Assembly: GCA_029260135.1 (NCBI GenBank)
Contig: JAJDDV010000155.1
Span: 1-64,000, forward strand
Direction of reading: 5' to 3'
Length of the DNA: 64,000 nucleotides
From: Phycisphaerae bacterium
GTDB lineage: Bacteria; Planctomycetota; Phycisphaerae; UBA1845
The notes beneath the pieces were generated by a model that saw only the letters and a list, made by a program, of their open reading frames with translations, did not search any database and was not told the origin of the DNA. Shown here one piece after another: positions 47,540-57,357 of this stretch. Position 1 is the stretch's first letter, and the number at the start of each line of letters is the position of its first letter. A program made the translations under genes and the position numbers.

Positions 47540-48646
47540 TCAAAGTGACAGCGCCCAGTCGACGACGGCGTCAATGCCCTCGTCGCGAACGGCGCTGACC
47601 CTCCAGATCGGCCGGGAATCGCCCACGGCGCTGACGAGCTGCGCTTGGCAAGCGTCAGCCCCGGACAGATCGCACTTGTTGAGCACGAATCCGCCGGCGA
47701 TTTCCATGATGCCGGCCTTGGAAAACTGGACGGAATCGCCGGAGTCGGGCATCAGAAGCAGCAGCGTGTGATCCGCCAGCTTGGCGACGCTGACGTCGGC
47801 TTGGCCCGCACCGACCGTTTCAACAAGGATGAAATCGAAACCGAAGCCCTTCATCGTGTCCACCACGTCACCACAGTGAGGCGCCAGACCGCCCGTCGCC
47901 CCGCCCGAGGAGAGGCTACGGATGAAGAAGTCGGCGTCCGGCGAGCCGAGCATCATGCGGAGTCGGTCGCCGAGCAATGCCCCGCCGGTTATCGGGCTAC
48001 TCGGGTCGATTGCCACGACCGCCACGCGCTTGCCCCGATCGCACAGCATTCGGCCGAGCTTGCCGATGAACGAACTCTTCCCCACGCCCGGCGCACCGGT
48101 GACACCGATGACGGTGGCGTTTCCGCCCGGCGGCTTCCAGCCCTCCGGCAGTGTCTCTCGCTGAATCGCCGTGATGACCTTGGCGAGAATGCGAGCATCT
48201 CGTTTGGCGAATCCCTCGCGGATTTGTGCTTCGTCCATATTGCTTCGTGGTCGCGACGCCAGCTCCTGCATCGCCGTCATGATCTTGTCCAAGGGTGAAC
48301 CGGGATTAAAAACCGCGGCGATGCCCATCTCTTCCAGTGCGGCGTAGTCGCTCTCCGGAACGATACCACCGAGCACGACGGGAAGGTCCTCGATCCCACA
48401 CGCTTTTCGAATTCGCAGAATCTCGGGCATGACCGTCATGTGCGCCGCGGAAAGCAGGCTCACACCAACGACGTCGGCGTCTTCCTGCAAGGCCGCGAAC
48501 ATCGTCGCTTCACACGTCTGCCACAAACCGGTGTAGATTACCTCGATCCCGGCATCGCGAAACGACCGTGCCAACACCTTGACACCACGATCGTGACCAT
48601 CCAGGCCGATCTTGGCGAGTAGAACACGGGGTGGATTCGTTGTCAT
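47540..48646 (-). CDS. Fusion: acyl-CoA mutase cobalamin-binding domain + MeaB/ArgK-type GTPase
   Basis: B12 motif 'KIGLDGHDRGVKVLARSFRDAGIEVIYTGLWQT'; GTPase 'IGVTGAPGVGKSSFIGKLG', 'VAIDPSSPITGGALLGDRLRM', 'LNKCDLSGAD'; start taken at ATG 48646. Confidence 0.9.
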   Translation of the reverse strand: MTTNPPRVLLAKIGLDGHDRGVKVLARSFRDAGIEVIYTGLWQTCEATMFAALQEDADVVGVSLLSAAHMTVMPEILRIRKACGIEDLPVVLGGIVPESDYAALEEMGIAAVFNPGSPLDKIMTAMQELASRPRSNMDEAQIREGFAKRDARILAKVITAIQRETLPEGWKPPGGNATVIGVTGAPGVGKSSFIGKLGRMLCDRGKRVAVVAIDPSSPITGGALLGDRLRMMLGSPDADFFIRSLSSGGATGGLAPHCGDVVDTMKGFGFDFILVETVGAGQADVSVAKLADHTLLLLMPDSGDSVQFSKAGIMEIAGGFVLNKCDLSGADACQAQLVSAVGDSRPIWRVSAVRDEGIDAVVDWALSL

Positions 48647-48666: not shown

Positions 48667-49266
48667 TCAAGCCACCTTCTCGGCACCGGCGAACTCGAGC
48701 AGCGAATTCAGGAACAACTTCAGCTCGGGGCACTGGTCTGCCGCGATTGCGAGACGTTCGGCGGTAAGCCACTTTGAAGCATGAAGGACCTTCTGATACT
48801 TGGACCTTGCACGTTTGAACAAGTTATCCAGATGAACAGAAGGCGGCTTGTCGCTATCGATCTCCTCTGGCTTGGCACCCGGCTTCTTCGCATCCAATTT
48901 CAAGGACTTTGCGATCTCCTCCCAGAAAGGGATCATCCACGCTTCCACTTCAAACTGCGCAGCGTGAGCGCGGAACTTTGAATCATCTCCAGAAGAGCCA
49001 ACGTGTTTCCTGATCCTGGCCTTCGCGTCTTGAGCATTCTTGAATAGTGGGTAAACGTCGGCCAAGGCAATAACGCCAGTAACGTCGTCGTCACCAACGT
49101 ACTTGGCCACCAACAACGGAAGTTGACGCTGAAGCAGATGTCCATCGAGCTTTCGCGTGCATATCCCTGTGCGATTCTCGCTTGGCTTGCGAAGGTTCAC
49201 GAAGTCGCCGAGCGCTCGCCTCAACGCGCGTTCCGTTTTGCCTTCGCAGATGACGACAATCTTCAT
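48667..49266 (-). CDS. DUF4276-like protein (possible TOPRIM-type nuclease partner)
   Basis: 'MKIVVICEGKTERALRRALGDFV', 'ALADVYPLF', 'AAQFEVEAWMIPFW'; ATGA overlap with the ATPase gene. Confidence 0.7.
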   Translation of the reverse strand: MKIVVICEGKTERALRRALGDFVNLRKPSENRTGICTRKLDGHLLQRQLPLLVAKYVGDDDVTGVIALADVYPLFKNAQDAKARIRKHVGSSGDDSKFRAHAAQFEVEAWMIPFWEEIAKSLKLDAKKPGAKPEEIDSDKPPSVHLDNLFKRARSKYQKVLHASKWLTAERLAIAADQCPELKLFLNSLLEFAGAEKVA

Positions 49267-50393
49267 CGACGCCCCCCAAGCTCGCCCATCGTCCAGAGCT
49301 CGGAGAGGCTGAAGTCCTCAAGCCACCCCTTCAAATCAGGTCGATCATCCGCCCGCGATAGACAGGCCCCTTCTGCACCAATATCCGCGATTATGAGCTC
49401 TTCGGGCTCAAGCCAACGGACAAGCTCTGCGCTCTGCGTTGCGGCCACAATCGTCTTCCGCGCCGACATCTTTCGGAGTATCGAAGTGATGAGCATGACC
49501 CATTCGGGGTGAAGGCTCAGTTCAGGTTCATCGATAAGCACAAGCTCGTCATCGGGGACGGCGTGCAGTAGGGTCAGCAACCAGATCATCCGGAGTATCC
49601 CGTCGGACAGCTGATTGGAGTAGAAGACATCCTCGACATCCTTCTGTCGCCAAGTCAGGCTTACGGTTCCGGCACCGGCAAGCGGAAAATCGAGCTCGTC
49701 CAGTTCCGGAACGGCGTTGCGAAGATCGTCGACCAGCTCCCGAAATGCCTCTCGCCGCTCGGTCTTCATCCCATATAAGACAGAGTAGAGGTTGGCTCCA
49801 TCATGCCTCGGTATTGTCGCGAGCTGTAGTTGTTGAGGATCCCTAACCTTTCCACCAGGATCGAACTTACCGGATGGCCAGAAGGAAATGGACCGAAAGT
49901 CCTTCAGTACCTCGTCGATGACAGGAACGTTCGACCGGACGTTGGGAAGCGCGATACCAGAGCCATGTCCGACACTTCCGCCGGATGTCTTCCCACGATC
50001 ATCGAGGGTGATCATGTTATCTTGACGCTTGAACAGAATGGGGTTTTGACCAGCCATCTTGGGCCTGAGTTCAAGACGTTCCGACCGAACAAAGAATCCG
50101 ATTCCCTCTTTTTCAAGCTCCAGATCATATTCAACTGATTCCGCGTCGCGAGTGGCGCCCAGCCCGATCTTCATCGACGGTTCTTCGGCGCCATATCGCA
50201 GGGAAGCAGGGAACCCCCCCCATTTAGCGAAGCCGTTGGCAAGCTGTTCGACGCCCGAAAAGAGGCGGATCAACTCCAGAAAACTCGACTTCCCCGCCCC
50301 ATTCGGACCGATGATGACATTGAACGGACGCAGCTCGAGATCCACGTCACCCAGGCAACGGAAGTTCTTGGCTCGAATATGCGTGATTCGCAT
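49263..50393 (-). CDS. AAA family ATPase (AAA_21 / OLD-like)
   Basis: 'ITHIRAKNFRCLGDVDLELRPFNVIIGPNGAGKSSFLELIRLF', 'LSDGILRMIWLLTLL', 'LVLIDEPELSLHPEWVMLI', 'IVAATQSAELV'. Confidence 0.88.
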   Translation of the reverse strand: MRITHIRAKNFRCLGDVDLELRPFNVIIGPNGAGKSSFLELIRLFSGVEQLANGFAKWGGFPASLRYGAEEPSMKIGLGATRDAESVEYDLELEKEGIGFFVRSERLELRPKMAGQNPILFKRQDNMITLDDRGKTSGGSVGHGSGIALPNVRSNVPVIDEVLKDFRSISFWPSGKFDPGGKVRDPQQLQLATIPRHDGANLYSVLYGMKTERREAFRELVDDLRNAVPELDELDFPLAGAGTVSLTWRQKDVEDVFYSNQLSDGILRMIWLLTLLHAVPDDELVLIDEPELSLHPEWVMLITSILRKMSARKTIVAATQSAELVRWLEPEELIIADIGAEGACLSRADDRPDLKGWLEDFSLSELWTMGELGGRR

Positions 50394-50431
50394 GGGACCA
50401 GACTCCTGCCAACACATTCACTTCGCAAACG

Positions 50432-52036
50432 TCACCACTCCGGCCCACCGTCGTAGGAACCGAAGACGGTCTTCATCGTGGCCATCATCTCGCCGACGGT
50501 CGCGTCGGCCTCGGCGGCGTCTATCAGCGCGGGCATGAGGTTGACACCCTCACGCGCGTCGCTCTTCAATCGATCGAGTGCTTGCTCGTGCCTCTTCGCG
50601 TCGCGTGATTGTTTGAGTTCCTTCAGGCGCCGTACCTGCTCATCCTCGGTATCCTGCGATATTTTGAGCGTGTCGATACCCGGCGGGCCGTCCTCGATAA
50701 ACTCGTTGACGCCGACGATGATCTTGTCCTTGGCGTCGATACGCTTCTGCTCGGCATGGGCCGATTCGGCAATACGGCGCCGGAAGAAGCCTCGATCGAT
50801 AGCTTTGAGCACACCGCCCATCGCATCGATCTGATCGATAATGGCGTAGGCCTTCGCCTCGATCTCGTTGGTCATCTTCTCCATGAAAAAGCTGCCGCCG
50901 AGCGGATCGACGGTCTGCGTCACGTTCGACTCGTGCGCAAGCACCTGCTGCGTGCGAAGGGCAAGTTTGGCGGCCGTTTCGGTGGGAAGGGCCAGCGTCT
51001 CGTCCATGCTGTTGGTGTGCAGAGACTGCGTACCGCCGAGCACCGCCGCCATGGCCTGATATGCCACACGAACGACGTTGTTCATCGGCTGCTGCTCGGT
51101 CAATGAAACACCGGCCGTCTGGCAGTGCATTCGCAGCAACAAGCTTCGCTCGCTCTTGGCTTTGAACCGGTCGCGCATCGTGTGCGACCAGATCCGCCGC
51201 GAGGCACGGAGCTTGGCGATCTCCTCCAAGAAGTCGTTGTGAACGTCGAAGAAGAAGCTCAATCGCGGCGCGAACGCGTCGACGTCCAATCCTCGTTCGA
51301 TCGACTTCTCGGTATACGCCATGCCGTCGGCCAGCGTGAAGGCGAGCTCCTCCGCAGCCGTCGCCCCCGCCTCGCGAATGTGATAGCCGCTGATGCTGAC
51401 CGTGTTCCACTGGGGCAGGTGCTGCGTGCAGTACTCGATCGTGTCGATCACGAGCTTGACGCTCGGCTCGGGCGGAAAAACGTATTCGTTCTGCGCGTGG
51501 AACTCCTTGAGAATATCGTTCTGCAGCGTGCCCCGAAGTTTCTCCGTCGGTACGCCCTGCTCCTGTCCAACGGCGATGTAGAAAGCCAGCAGAATCGCCG
51601 CGGGAGCGTTGATCGTCATACTCGTGCTGACGGCACCCAGATCGATTCCATCGAACAATCGGCGCATGTCCGCCAGCGAAGCGATGGCCACGCCGCACCG
51701 CCCCACCTCGCCGAGTGACAGCGGGTCGTCACTATCGCGCCCCATCAACGTGGGCAGATCGAACGCCGTACTCAGCCCCGTCTGGCCGTGTTCGAGCAGG
51801 TACTTGAAGCGCGCGTTCGTGTCATCGGCGGATCCGAACCCCGCGAACTGGCGCATCGTCCACAATCGCTCGCGATACATCGTCCGATGCGGGCCGCGCG
51901 TGTAGGGGAAACTACCGGGAACGCCCAGCGCCTCCGGGGCATCGAACGAACCCAAATCTTCCGGCCCGGTCCAGGGTTTGGTGTCGGCGCCGTCAACCGG
52001 GGGACTCGACGGATCGGCGGACGGTTCCACACTCAT
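50432..52036 (-). CDS. icmA: Adenosylcobalamin-dependent acyl-CoA mutase large subunit, isobutyryl-CoA mutase-like
   Basis: MCM-family fold; '[15 protein letters not shown]', '[18 protein letters not shown]', '[15 protein letters not shown]', '[25 protein letters not shown]'. Confidence 0.82.
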
Positions 52037-52054
52037 ACTTCTGCTGCCTCCGGA

Positions 52055-52912
52055 CTAGTCATACTCGTAGAATCCTCGTTTCGTCTTGCGGCCCATACGC
52101 CCCGCGGCCACCATCTTACGCAGAAGCGGCGAGGGGCGGTAGCGATCGTCGCCCAAATCGCGGTGAAGGACACTCAGGATGTCCAGACACACGTCCAGGC
52201 CGATCAAATCAGCCAGAGCGAGCGGTCCCATCGGATGATTCATACCGAGCTTCATGATGTCGTCGATGGCGGTCGCTTCCGCGACACCTTCCTGCAGCGC
52301 GAAGACCGCCTCGTTGATCATCGGCATCAACACGCGGTTCGAAACGAAACCGGGATAGTCGTTGCACTCGACCGGCGACTTGCCGACGGCTTGCGCCAGC
52401 GCGATCGTGTGCTGAGCCGTCTCATCACTCGTCTGCAACCCTCGCACGACCTCGACGAGCTTCATCAGTGGAACCGGATTGAAGAAGTGCATACCGATGA
52501 ACCGCTCGGGTCGTTTCGTGCCCGCCGCCAGACGCGTGATGCTGATACTGGAGGTGTTGCTCGCAAGAATGCCATCCTCTGTCACCATCGACTGAACAGC
52601 TGCGAGCACTTCGAGCTTGGCATCGAGATTCTCGAAGATGGCCTCGACGACCAGCGAGCGGTCGCCCAGATCCGACAGATTCGTCACTGCGCAGATCCTC
52701 TGCTTGGTCCCACCGGCATCGTCGGCCGACATCTTGCCCTTCTCGACCGCGCGATCCAGCATCTTGCCGATATGACCGATAGCCGCGTCCACCGCACCGG
52801 ATATGCTGTCGAACAACCCCACTTCGAACCCGGCCTGTGCAAACACCTGCGCAATACCGCGCCCCATCGTCCCCGCGCCGATCACGGCGATTCGACCTGT
52901 CTTGGCATCCAT
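52055..52912 (-). CDS. 3-hydroxybutyryl-CoA dehydrogenase
   Basis: '[24 protein letters not shown]', '[13 protein letters not shown]', '[19 protein letters not shown]'; ATG at 52912. Confidence 0.93.
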
Positions 52913-52958
52913 CTCGAGAGTACCTCCCACTTGGTCATTTTTCCCGCGCGCCCGCGTT

Positions 52959-53306
52959 TCAAGGCGACTCGGGTGGCAATGCCGCCTGCAACTCATCCTG
53001 AAGCACAGGCAGCTTTTTCTCAATCACCAGCCAGACAACATCAGGATCGAGGCTGTGGTATCCATGCACGAGAACGTGGCGGAATCCGATGATGCGATCG
53101 TGATCGGTAAACGTCTCAGCCATCGCCGGAATATGCGACTTGAGCTGCAACATCGCCTCCCCAATGATCTGCAACTCGCGCTCGACGGCGCCTCGAAAGA
53201 CGCGGTCCGACCGGTACCGGTCCACGCTTTCGGTCCTTGTCAGATCCAGCAAGAATCGACATGAATCAAGCATGTCAAAAATGAACTTGTTCGGATTACG
53301 CCGCAT
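52959..53306 (-). CDS. hepT: HEPN-domain toxin-like protein (DUF86/HepT)
   Basis: RX4H motif in '[19 protein letters not shown]'; overlaps the MNT gene. Confidence 0.88.
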
Positions 53307-53607
53307 ATACCACTTTCCGCGTGGCGTTCACCTCGAGGATGAAGTACGGATTACGCATGGTATGAGGCTCGATCAGGTCCACCTTCCGCTGGAACAGCGT
53401 AACCAGGTCCTCCCAGAGCCCGAAGTACGCCTCATAGTGCTCGGCGGGTGACAGCGGTTCGTACTCCACAAGAAAGTCCAGGTCGCTCGTGTCGGGGTCG
53501 AACGATCCGTCAACCACGGATCCGAAGACCTCCAGCTGACGAACGCGATGCTTCTTGCACAGCAGTTCGACACCGGCGCGTTGTGCATCGATGACCGCAA
53601 CCATCAC
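53296..53607 (-). CDS. mntA: MNT nucleotidyltransferase antitoxin-like protein
   Basis: 'VFGSVVDGSFDPDTSDLDFLVEYE' (GSX10DXD motif). Confidence 0.9.
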   Translation of the reverse strand: MMVAVIDAQRAGVELLCKKHRVRQLEVFGSVVDGSFDPDTSDLDFLVEYEPLSPAEHYEAYFGLWEDLVTLFQRKVDLIEPHTMRNPYFILEVNATRKVVYAA

Positions 53608-53691: not shown

Positions 53692-54831
53692 CTAGACCGC
53701 CAGGGACCGACCGATCACAAGCCTATGAATCTCGCTGGTCCCTTCGTAAAGCTCGGTGATCTTGGCGTCACGAAGGTACCGCTCGACCGGATAGTCGTTG
53801 CAGTACCCATACCCCCCGAACACCTGCACCGCGTGATTCGCGGCCTTGGAACACATCTCGCTGGCGAACAGCTTGGCCATCGCCGCCGGCGGTGAGTAGG
53901 GCTGGCCCTGATCTTTCAACCACGCGGCGCGATAGACCAGCATCCGCGCGGCCTCGACGCCAACGGCCATGTCCGCGAGCTTGCTCTGAATCGCCTGGAA
54001 CTTGCCAATCGGCCGGCCGAACTGAACACGCGTCCCAGCATATTCCGTCGCTTCTCGAAGGCATGCCTGCCCGATCCCCAGCGCCTGCGAGGCAATGCCG
54101 ATCCGCCCTCCATCCAGCGTGTTGAGGGCCACCCGCATACCGCGACCCCGTTCACCCAGCAGCGCTTCTTTGGGCACGACGCAATCTTCGAAGACGAACT
54201 CCGCCGTCGACGAGCAGCGAATCCCGAGCTTCTTCTCCAGTTTAGGCACGCGAAGGCCGTCGATCGGCATGTCGACAATGAACGCGCTGAGTCGGCGCTT
54301 GGGCTCATCAGGATCCGTCACGGCGATGAGCGCCATCACGCCCGCCTCGCCGCCGTTGGTGACGAAGATCTTCGAGCCGGTGATGTGCCAACCGTCATCC
54401 TTGAGAACCGCGGTACAGGTGGCCGCCCCGGCGTCGCTTCCGCTGCCCGGTTCCGTGAGCGACAGACAGCCGATCATTTCTCCGCTGGCCATGCGCGGCA
54501 GATAGGACTGCTTCTGCGCTTCGGTGCCGAACGTCATGATAGGATCGACGCACAGCGACGTGTGCGCGCTGAGCAAGACACCCGTCCCCGCGCAGGCCTT
54601 CGATACTTCTTCGACCACGCAGGACGACGCGACGGTTCCCATACCGGCGCCGCCGTACGCCTCTGGGATCGTGATGCCGAACAGACCAAGCTCGCGCAAC
54701 TGCGCGAGCAGCTCGGGCGTCATCTTCGCGTTTGTATCTCGCTCCGCTGCGCCGACCGCGACCTCGTTGGTGGCGAACTCGCGCACCGAATCCTGCAGCA
54801 TTCTGTGGTCATCGTCGAGATGGAAGTCCAT
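53692..54831 (-). CDS. Acyl-CoA dehydrogenase
   Basis: 'CLSLTEPGSGSDAGA', 'FVTNGGEAGVMALIAVTDP', '[42 protein letters not shown]'. Confidence 0.93.
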   Translation of the reverse strand: MDFHLDDDHRMLQDSVREFATNEVAVGAAERDTNAKMTPELLAQLRELGLFGITIPEAYGGAGMGTVASSCVVEEVSKACAGTGVLLSAHTSLCVDPIMTFGTEAQKQSYLPRMASGEMIGCLSLTEPGSGSDAGAATCTAVLKDDGWHITGSKIFVTNGGEAGVMALIAVTDPDEPKRRLSAFIVDMPIDGLRVPKLEKKLGIRCSSTAEFVFEDCVVPKEALLGERGRGMRVALNTLDGGRIGIASQALGIGQACLREATEYAGTRVQFGRPIGKFQAIQSKLADMAVGVEAARMLVYRAAWLKDQGQPYSPPAAMAKLFASEMCSKAANHAVQVFGGYGYCNDYPVERYLRDAKITELYEGTSEIHRLVIGRSLAV

Positions 54832-54842
54832 TCCGTACGTCC

Positions 54843-55985
54843 TTACTGTTCAAGTAGGTGGCGGGCAATGATCATCCGCTGAATCTGGCTCGATCCCTCA
54901 CCGATTTCACAAAGCTTGGCATCGCGCAGATAACGCTCGACCGGAACCTCTTTGGTATACCCCATACCCCCGAAGATCTGAATCGCGTTGAGACACGCCT
55001 GCGTCGCCATTTCGCTGGCAAAGAGCTTTGCGATCGAGGCGGCAATGTTCGACGGCTCATTCGAATCCGCCAGAATTCCCGCCTCACGCGTGAGAAGTCG
55101 CGCCGCATCGATCTCCGTCGCCATATCCGCCAGCATGAACTGTATCGACTGATGCTCGAAGATCGGCTTGCCGAACGCCGTGCGATCCTTGGCGTAGGCC
55201 AGCGCCTCTTCGAACGCGCCGCGCCCCAGCCCCACCGACATCGAAGCGATCGTAATCCGTCCGCGCTCGAGAACCTTCATCGAGTCGACGAAACCACCAT
55301 GGAGCTCGCCGCACAAGTTCTCTTTGGGAAGGCGAACGTTGTCGAGCGTCGACCCGACCGTGTCGGAACCTCGCATCCCCATCTTGTCTTCTTTGGCGCC
55401 GATCGAGAATCCCGGCGTGTCGCGATCGACAATGAACGCGCTGATACCCTTCGGACCACCCTCCGGCGTCGTCTTCGCCATCACCACGAAGACGCCCGCG
55501 TAGAGGCCGTTCGTGATCCACTGCTTCGATCCGTTCAAGACCCAGGTATCACCGTCCAGTTCCGCCGTGGTCGTGAGCGCAGCCGCATCGCTGCCACAAC
55601 CCGGCTCCGACAGCGCCCACGCACCGAGGTACTTACCCACGGCAAGGTCCGGAAGGTACTTCGCCTTCTGTGTTTCGTTGGCACCGATCAGAAAGTGCGC
55701 ACAGCACAAGGCGTTGTGCGCGTCGAGCATCAGTGCCGTCGCACCGCAATGGCGCGCGACTTCCTCCATGATGACCGTCGCCGCCAAGTCGCCCAAACCC
55801 GATCCGCCATACTCGGTCGGAATGAAGATGCCCAGGAATCCCAGCTCGGCCAGCTTGGCGACGACGTCGCGAGGGATGTTCGCCTCGCGATCCCACTGGC
55901 GCGCACCGGGGGCCAGCGTATCCGCGGCAAATCGCCTAGCGAGATCCTGAAGCGCCACCAGCTCATCGGGAAGCTCAAAGTCCAT
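54843..55985 (-). CDS. Acyl-CoA dehydrogenase
   Basis: '[16 protein letters not shown]', '[18 protein letters not shown]', '[41 protein letters not shown]'; ATG at 55985. Confidence 0.93.
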
Positions 55986-56181
55986 GAGGTCTGCATCCCA
56001 GCGCTGCACGGGGCAACGCGAAAAGAGAAAACTAGGGTCCTTCCCAAACCGGAACGGCTGGATCAAACCGGGTGCAAACCCGCCTTCGCCGTACCCGACA
56101 CGAACCTACAATTCTTATGCCAACACCGAGCCCAATCACCCGCGACAATCGCCGGAATTCGCACCACGATCGCATTCGCCA

Positions 56182-57357
56182 TCAAGCCTCAGACAGGGCA
56201 GCCCCGTCCCGGGCGAGACCATTCGCGATGACGATACGCTGAACCTCCGACGTGCCTTCGTAAATCGTGGTCACACGCGCGTCGCGATAGAGCTGCTCCA
56301 CCCGACACTCACGCACATACCCACTTCCACCGTGGACCTGAACTGCGCGATACGCAATCCGGTTCGCGGCCTCCGTCGCGTAGAGCTTGGCCATGGAACT
56401 CATCCGGCGATCCGCCTCACCCCGGTCAATCAGCCTCGCGGCCCGCCACGTCAGCGCCTTGGCCGCCTCCAGCTCCACGGCGCTCTTGGCAATCATGTCC
56501 CCCACGGCGGCAAACGTGCCGATCGGCCGACCGAACTGCTCGCGCTGCCTCGCATAGGAGACCATCTCCGAGAGGCAGGCCTCCGCGATGCCGGTCGCCT
56601 GCGAGGCGATTCCCACCCGGCCGCGGTTCAGACCCGAGAGAAAAACGTGCAATCCTCGACCCGGTACATCCAGTTGAAACTTGTCCGGGACGAACGAATC
56701 CGTGAAATGGACGACCGCTGTCTCACTTCCGCGAATCCCCATCTTGCCGTGGATCGCAGTCCGCTCGAGACCGTTATCCCTTCCGTCGACCAGAAAAGCA
56801 CAGAGGCTCGCATCGTCCGACGCCCCCACTAGCCGTGCCAGCGTCAAGAACCAGCGACCCGTCAGCCCGTTGGTGATCCACATCTTCTCGCCGTTGATCC
56901 GAAACCCACCGTCGACCTTCGTGGCGGTCGTCGTTACGGCCGCGGCGTCACTGCCTGCGCCCGCCTCCGTCAACGCAAACGCGGCAAAGCTCCCCGGATC
57001 GCCCCAATGAGGAAGGCACTCGCTGCGCGCCGCTTGCGACGCCCGGTGATCCAGAATCGTCCCGACCAGACTGTGAACGCTCAAGGTTACACACGTGGCC
57101 GGCGAACTGGCGGAAATCTCATGGAGAATGGCTCCGTACGTCGAAAACGGACACCCGACACCCTCCAGATCCTCCGGAACGAGGAGATTCATGAACCCCA
57201 TTTCGCCGAGTTTCGGAAGAACCTCAGCCACGGATGATTCGCCCGCGTCCCACTTGCGATCGTGCGCAAACAGCTCGTGACGAGCGTACTCGCGGGCGGC
57301 GTCAATGAGCGCCACCTGATCATCTTCAACGGCTACGTGATTCGGTACGAGCGACAC
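56182..57357 (-). CDS. Acyl-CoA dehydrogenase
   Basis: 'ALTEAGAGSDAAAVTTTATK', 'MWITNGLTGRWFLTLARLV', 'VQVHGGSGYVRECRVEQLYRDARVTTIYEGTSEVQRIVIANGLARD'. Confidence 0.93.
   Translation of the reverse strand: MSLVPNHVAVEDDQVALIDAAREYARHELFAHDRKWDAGESSVAEVLPKLGEMGFMNLLVPEDLEGVGCPFSTYGAILHEISASSPATCVTLSVHSLVGTILDHRASQAARSECLPHWGDPGSFAAFALTEAGAGSDAAAVTTTATKVDGGFRINGEKMWITNGLTGRWFLTLARLVGASDDASLCAFLVDGRDNGLERTAIHGKMGIRGSETAVVHFTDSFVPDKFQLDVPGRGLHVFLSGLNRGRVGIASQATGIAEACLSEMVSYARQREQFGRPIGTFAAVGDMIAKSAVELEAAKALTWRAARLIDRGEADRRMSSMAKLYATEAANRIAYRAVQVHGGSGYVRECRVEQLYRDARVTTIYEGTSEVQRIVIANGLARDGAALSEA

Follow-up and report, generated by a model that had tools for sequence, protein, structure and literature searches.

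A free-standing Phycisphaerae mutase with isobutyryl-CoA mutase residues, and its B12-binding partner with a fused MeaB-type GTPase

In a Phycisphaerae bacterium (assembly GCA_029260135.1), a gene that resembles methylmalonyl-CoA mutase (MCM) carries the active-site residues of an isobutyryl-CoA mutase (ICM), raising the question of which acyl-CoA its product rearranges and how that enzyme is provided with its B12 cofactor. The gene lies at 50432-52036 of the window, by which we mean the whole stretch of 64,000 nucleotides of contig JAJDDV010000155.1 that was analysed; like all window genes discussed here, it is on the minus strand. We consider it very likely that the product belongs to a two-chain isobutyryl-CoA/butyryl-CoA mutase, a 'split IcmF' with a free mutase and with a chaperone joined to the B12 subunit. 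Both IcmF and the misannotation of ICM as MCM are prior knowledge, the latter being mentioned in the part of PMC7764203 that cites Cracan et al. 2010. Beyond the residue observation, the newer part is the fusion partner.

Active-site residues of the mutase and its relatives

The mutase reading frame is open throughout, its translation giving 534 residues with no internal stop, and a domain search found PF01642 only, with no B12 domain in this large, substrate-binding subunit. Alignment with PDB sequences (phmmer and MAFFT) sets Phe64, Gln182 and His219 against the Tyr, Arg and His of 1req at chain indices 88, 206 and 243, which are one lower than the author numbers Tyr89, Arg207 and His244; 5req, in the same PDB match list, is the Y89F mutant. 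The preliminary description had placed the three residues correctly: counted in codons from the start at 52036, Phe64 falls at 51845-51847 and Gln182 at 51491-51493, and the spacing that it likened to that of Propionibacterium shermanii MCM matches exactly. In MCM, the Tyr/Arg pair holds the carboxylate of methylmalonyl-CoA. The IcmF of C. metallidurans has Phe and Gln in the two corresponding columns, at chain indices 618 and 762, which we take to be Phe598 and Gln742 after subtracting a 20-residue PDB chain offset; both have a role in the IcmF active site, and the description of Phe and Gln as ICM residues is borne out by this enzyme. The predicted structure of the mutase matches the folds of MCM, IcmF and 2-hydroxyisobutyryl-CoA mutase (HCM), with confidence at residues 46-64 in the pocket region too low for a reading of its geometry. 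Since the only NCBIfam model above cutoff is that of the MCM N-terminal domain, the automatic annotation as methylmalonyl-CoA mutase that had been foreseen is realistic. The IcmF model NF045497 falls below its cutoff (356.8 versus 1500 bits).

The residue pattern is constant among relatives. A search of 198 genomes of the class with the entire mutase, with no motif seeding, gave a set of 30 sequences, and all 29 members other than the window protein have Phe, Ala, Gln and His at positions 64, 91, 182 and 219. The roughly 80 nearest named relatives, found by a motif-seeded scan of genome contigs, have the Phe, Gln and His without exception, a set that would be biased if taken alone because Phe64 and Gln182 lie inside two of the six seed patterns. 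At the same four positions the MCMs of human, P. shermanii, Agrobacterium and Nonomuraea read Y/A/R/H and the HCMs I/D/Q/H, and this separation of the families indicates that the pattern is not due to chance. The ethylmalonyl-CoA mutase (ECM) of Tritonibacter also reads Y/A/R/H, with Gly following the Arg; the window mutase has neither this Tyr nor the Arg-Gly.

In the tree, the window mutase falls within a Planctomycetota-dominated clade, amid free-standing subunits of many phyla that share the Phe/Gln pair (F/Q mutases). The MCM, HCM and IcmF clades are each strongly supported and exclude it, the bona fide MCMs and the IcmFs at 100/100 each, with relations between the clades weakly fixed. 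The alignment and tree with MCM, IcmF, HCM and ECM that had been proposed as a check thus agree with the earlier reading, with Phe and Gln at the carboxylate-binding positions and the window protein outside the MCM clade. However, the characterised F/Q enzyme, IcmF, branches far from the window mutase, so that the residue pair alone is not proof of the same substrate.

Like the window mutase, IcmA of the Streptomyces IcmA/IcmB system is a separate large subunit that lacks a B12 domain, and it has the Phe and Gln residues. When an approximate IcmA fragment was compared with plasmids, the relatives found were at most 63% identical and no Streptomyces IcmA was among the top matches. A Sphingobium plasmid 'methylmalonyl-CoA mutase' (L099:2851-4572) has Val/Glu/Val and a Gln at the position of the catalytic His244, and by its sequence appears to be an odd mutase. 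Another, from a Sinorhizobium plasmid (L096:4833-6533), has Val/Asp/Gln/His, intermediate between the HCM and ICM types, and lies near aminotransferase, crotonase and AMP-binding protein genes.

The fused B12-binding domain and GTPase

As in an IcmA-type system, a B12-binding partner (47540-48646) is encoded with the mutase, downstream of it, but here it is fused to a GTPase, unlike the small subunit IcmB. The protein has 368 residues and consists of a B12-binding domain (DGHDRG) followed by a MeaB-type GTPase with P-loop (GAPGVGKSS), switch II (ETVGAGQ), switch III (GDSVQFSK) and NKCD motifs. A start at 48646 (MTTNPP) is more likely than one at the opening of the reading frame at 48772. No other MeaB in the genome scores above cutoff. 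According to the literature, G-protein metallochaperones are stand-alone proteins, with IcmF the notable exception (PMC10481361; PMC9164220). We found no description of a B12 subunit fused to its chaperone and working with a separate mutase, in a search that did not extend to the original IcmF paper, so that priority is not certain.

The full-length fusion is present in 55 of the 198 sampled Phycisphaerae genomes, 53 of which also have an F/Q mutase; two have the fusion only, six the mutase only and 137 neither, where membership of the F/Q group past the 30 loci that were read was assigned by identity of at least 55% and not from the residues themselves. For this link a Fisher test gives 1e-38, a value that ignores shared ancestry and shows only that the link is strong. 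Where the mutase occurs without the fusion, G185, G396, G398, G406 and G450 have separate B12 and G-domain genes or matches, and G489 has a match to neither domain. Three genomes (G325, G372 and G472) contain the F/Q-type mutase and the fusion together with a long MCM-like mutase that adjoins a separate G domain, and are a natural control inside one genome. Further candidate fusions were rejected: L152 and L153 hold a full IcmF beside a normal MCM and MeaB, and the B12 and MeaB genes of G185 are separate and adjacent. That the fusion arose only once was neither rejected nor shown (p-AU 0.27).

In all 28 of the B12-fused reading frames compared, the last residue lies -2 to +6 positions from that of the window protein, and true stand-alone MeaBs continue for at least 66 residues past this aligned end (L121, whose frame is cut by the locus edge, was excluded from this measure). 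In MeaB and MMAA, the C-terminal extension is involved in dimerisation (PMC9974510). The fused chaperones end where this extension would begin and, as their aligned ends show, have lost it. They retain the P-loop, switch II, NKxD and the switch III Asp/Gln/Lys that the window G domain shares with MeaB and MMAA, from which it differs in its fusion to a B12 domain and in the absent extension.

The closest known arrangement is IcmF (C. metallidurans 4xc6/8ssl), in which a B12 domain is also followed by a MeaB-like GTPase and the active site is likewise Phe/Gln/His. However, IcmF is one chain, whereas here there are two, of 368 and 534 residues, with the mutase separate and 36-39% identical to IcmF and with the partner ending right after its G domain. 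This similarity raises the alternative that the fused protein descended from the front half of IcmF and did not arise by independent fusion, a proposal that concerns the origin of the partner only and that we regard as rather unlikely. The domain order is identical to that of IcmF, and the tree does not fix the point at which IcmF joins, where long branches meet. The predicted fold also fits: the AlphaFold2 model of the fusion is confident (mean pLDDT 86, pTM 0.88), its B12-G arrangement is like that of IcmF, and its PDB matches at ranks 1-14 are all IcmF, over the full-length B12-G half at TMq 0.80-0.82, although IcmF structures seen in training may have shaped the model. Against descent from IcmF, the G domain is closer to most stand-alone MeaBs (41-52% identity) than to IcmF (37-40%), switch III keeps the Asp of MeaB where IcmF has Ala, and IcmF is only distantly related to the mutase chain.

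Operon context and the predicted substrate

The mutase is preceded by three acyl-CoA dehydrogenase genes (56182-57357, 54843-56066 and 53692-54831), whose order is conserved in relatives, and by a gene for 3-hydroxybutyryl-CoA dehydrogenase (HBDH; 52055-53023), whose reading frame is probably over-extended at its 5' end. Relatives of the same family have the operon ACD-ACD-ACD-HBDH-ECH-MUT-(B12+G), some with two acyl-CoA dehydrogenases in place of three, which by gene content is a complete set for converting butyryl-CoA to acetoacetyl-CoA. In the window, a crotonase is absent from its usual slot between HBDH and the mutase, which are separated by fewer than 20 bases (52036-52055); crotonases and thiolases are present elsewhere in the genome.

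Two gene pairs are inserted into the operon. The first, a candidate defence pair similar to HEC-01 (48667-50417), lies directly downstream of the mutase and ahead of the fusion, and is not part of the enzyme; it consists of an AAA ATPase (49263-50417) and a DUF4276 partner (48667-49266). A diverged AAA/DUF4276 pair with 45-51% identity occupies the equivalent site at L232:2161-3932, as does a candidate pair of similar appearance at L228:11265-13057, pointing to a site that has taken up insertions more than once. The second, a HepT-like/MntA-like toxin-antitoxin pair (52959-53607), is inserted between the third acyl-CoA dehydrogenase and HBDH. Such pairs also occur within the operon at L228:6915-7554, L235:6877-7663, L233:8088-8739 and L017:3680-4436, and across genomes they use two sites, ahead of HBDH or in the gap between HBDH and crotonase.

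The remaining genome is consistent with an ICM. No methylmalonyl-CoA epimerase and no methylmalonate-semialdehyde dehydrogenase (MMSDH) scored above cutoff in this genome, which is 95% complete, so that either gene could be hidden, and the only carboxyltransferase matches are partial ones to PF01039 on frames of 269 and 379 residues, which we read as probable AccD and AccA and not as a clear propionyl-CoA carboxylase. An MCM would therefore have no obvious supply route, whereas an ICM fits. The substrate is predicted from two residues, from the genes of the operon and from what this 95% complete genome lacks; the prediction is well supported, and the interconversion of isobutyryl-CoA and butyryl-CoA proposed in the preliminary description is strengthened by the operon of the relatives and by the apparent lack of a propionyl-CoA/methylmalonyl-CoA route. 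The genome has a second mutase (L002 / L154:8318-10326), in which Tyr and Arg occupy the two positions and Gly follows the Arg; it lacks the conserved His and Gln near residues 304 and 306 of the window mutase, where it reads AGGGGGGLTIEQ. Beside it lie genes for a B12 subunit of its own, for an acyl-CoA dehydrogenase and for hydantoinase A/B. It has no separate MeaB, and might therefore share the fused chaperone.

From the residues and the gene neighbourhood, we infer the following route. The mutase chain would bind the acyl-CoA, and with Phe64 and Gln182 in place of the Tyr and Arg that hold a carboxylate, an uncharged isobutyryl group would fit. The fused chain would carry adenosylcobalamin (AdoCbl) on its B12 domain, with the tethered GTPase loading or repairing the cofactor. 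Isobutyryl-CoA, probably from valine, would be converted to butyryl-CoA, which the neighbouring acyl-CoA dehydrogenases, a crotonase, HBDH and a thiolase would take to acetyl-CoA, the crotonase being supplied from the operon in relatives and from elsewhere in this genome.

Other substrates have to be weighed. It is improbable that the F/Q mutase acts on another uncharged branched acyl-CoA, such as pivalyl-CoA, isovaleryl-CoA or a 2-methylacyl-CoA. IcmF prefers isobutyryl-CoA. Three acyl-CoA dehydrogenases would permit several chain types, and pivalyl- and isovaleryl-CoA are also taken by IcmF (PMC10481361), but the short C4 route from butyryl-CoA is the best match to the operon.

Slimmer still are the prospects of a 2-hydroxyisobutyryl-CoA mutase, of the HCM or RCM type, that would feed 3-hydroxybutyryl-CoA directly to the neighbouring HBDH. 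The best PDB sequence match of the mutase is in fact the HCM 4r3u, HcmA/HcmB with MeaH also has a separate large subunit (about 49% identity), the Gln is common to both, and in Methylibium, too, the mutase genes have HBDH nearby. However, where HCM of the HcmA type has Ile90 and Asp117, the window mutase has Phe and Ala, and its chaperone is fused to the B12 subunit and not separate as MeaH is. The operon also lacks a CoA ligase, whereas hcl is usual beside hcm/rcm genes (PMC7176365), and its acyl-CoA dehydrogenases, together with the crotonase, would be pointless. Least probable of all is an MCM with unusual residues, since 45-48% identity to MCMs and the lone NCBIfam match stand against the replacement of both Tyr89 and Arg207 in every relative, the position outside the MCM clade, and a genome in which neither epimerase nor MMSDH scored above cutoff and no propionyl-CoA carboxylase is clearly recognisable.

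Consequences for valine carbon and B12 loading in Phycisphaerae

The isobutyryl-CoA/butyryl-CoA reading would correct a likely misannotation in many members of the class Phycisphaerae, where valine carbon would then be predicted to end up as butyryl-CoA and acetyl-CoA instead of succinyl-CoA.

The fused partner bears on cofactor loading as well. As it retains switch III and lacks the MeaB extension, we infer that the G domains are brought together when the protein assembles with the dimeric mutase, and not by a permanent chaperone dimer. A broader proposal, whose chances we put at about even, is that Phycisphaerae load B12 into a mutase in a manner of their own, with a chaperone that is permanently attached to the cofactor subunit instead of the catalytic one, has lost its dimerisation tail and originated independently of IcmF. 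The loaded subunit would then dock onto the mutase as a single unit, in which form it would also be made, gated and repaired, and its G domains would pair no more than transiently, by way of switch III. A study of the MeaB structure (PMC9974510) asks what is gained by fusion in IcmF and whether transient pairing of the IcmF G domains is required, and the fusion partner is a natural test of these questions. With switch III present, the tail gone and the mutase on a chain of its own, the fusion allows the two functions to be studied apart.
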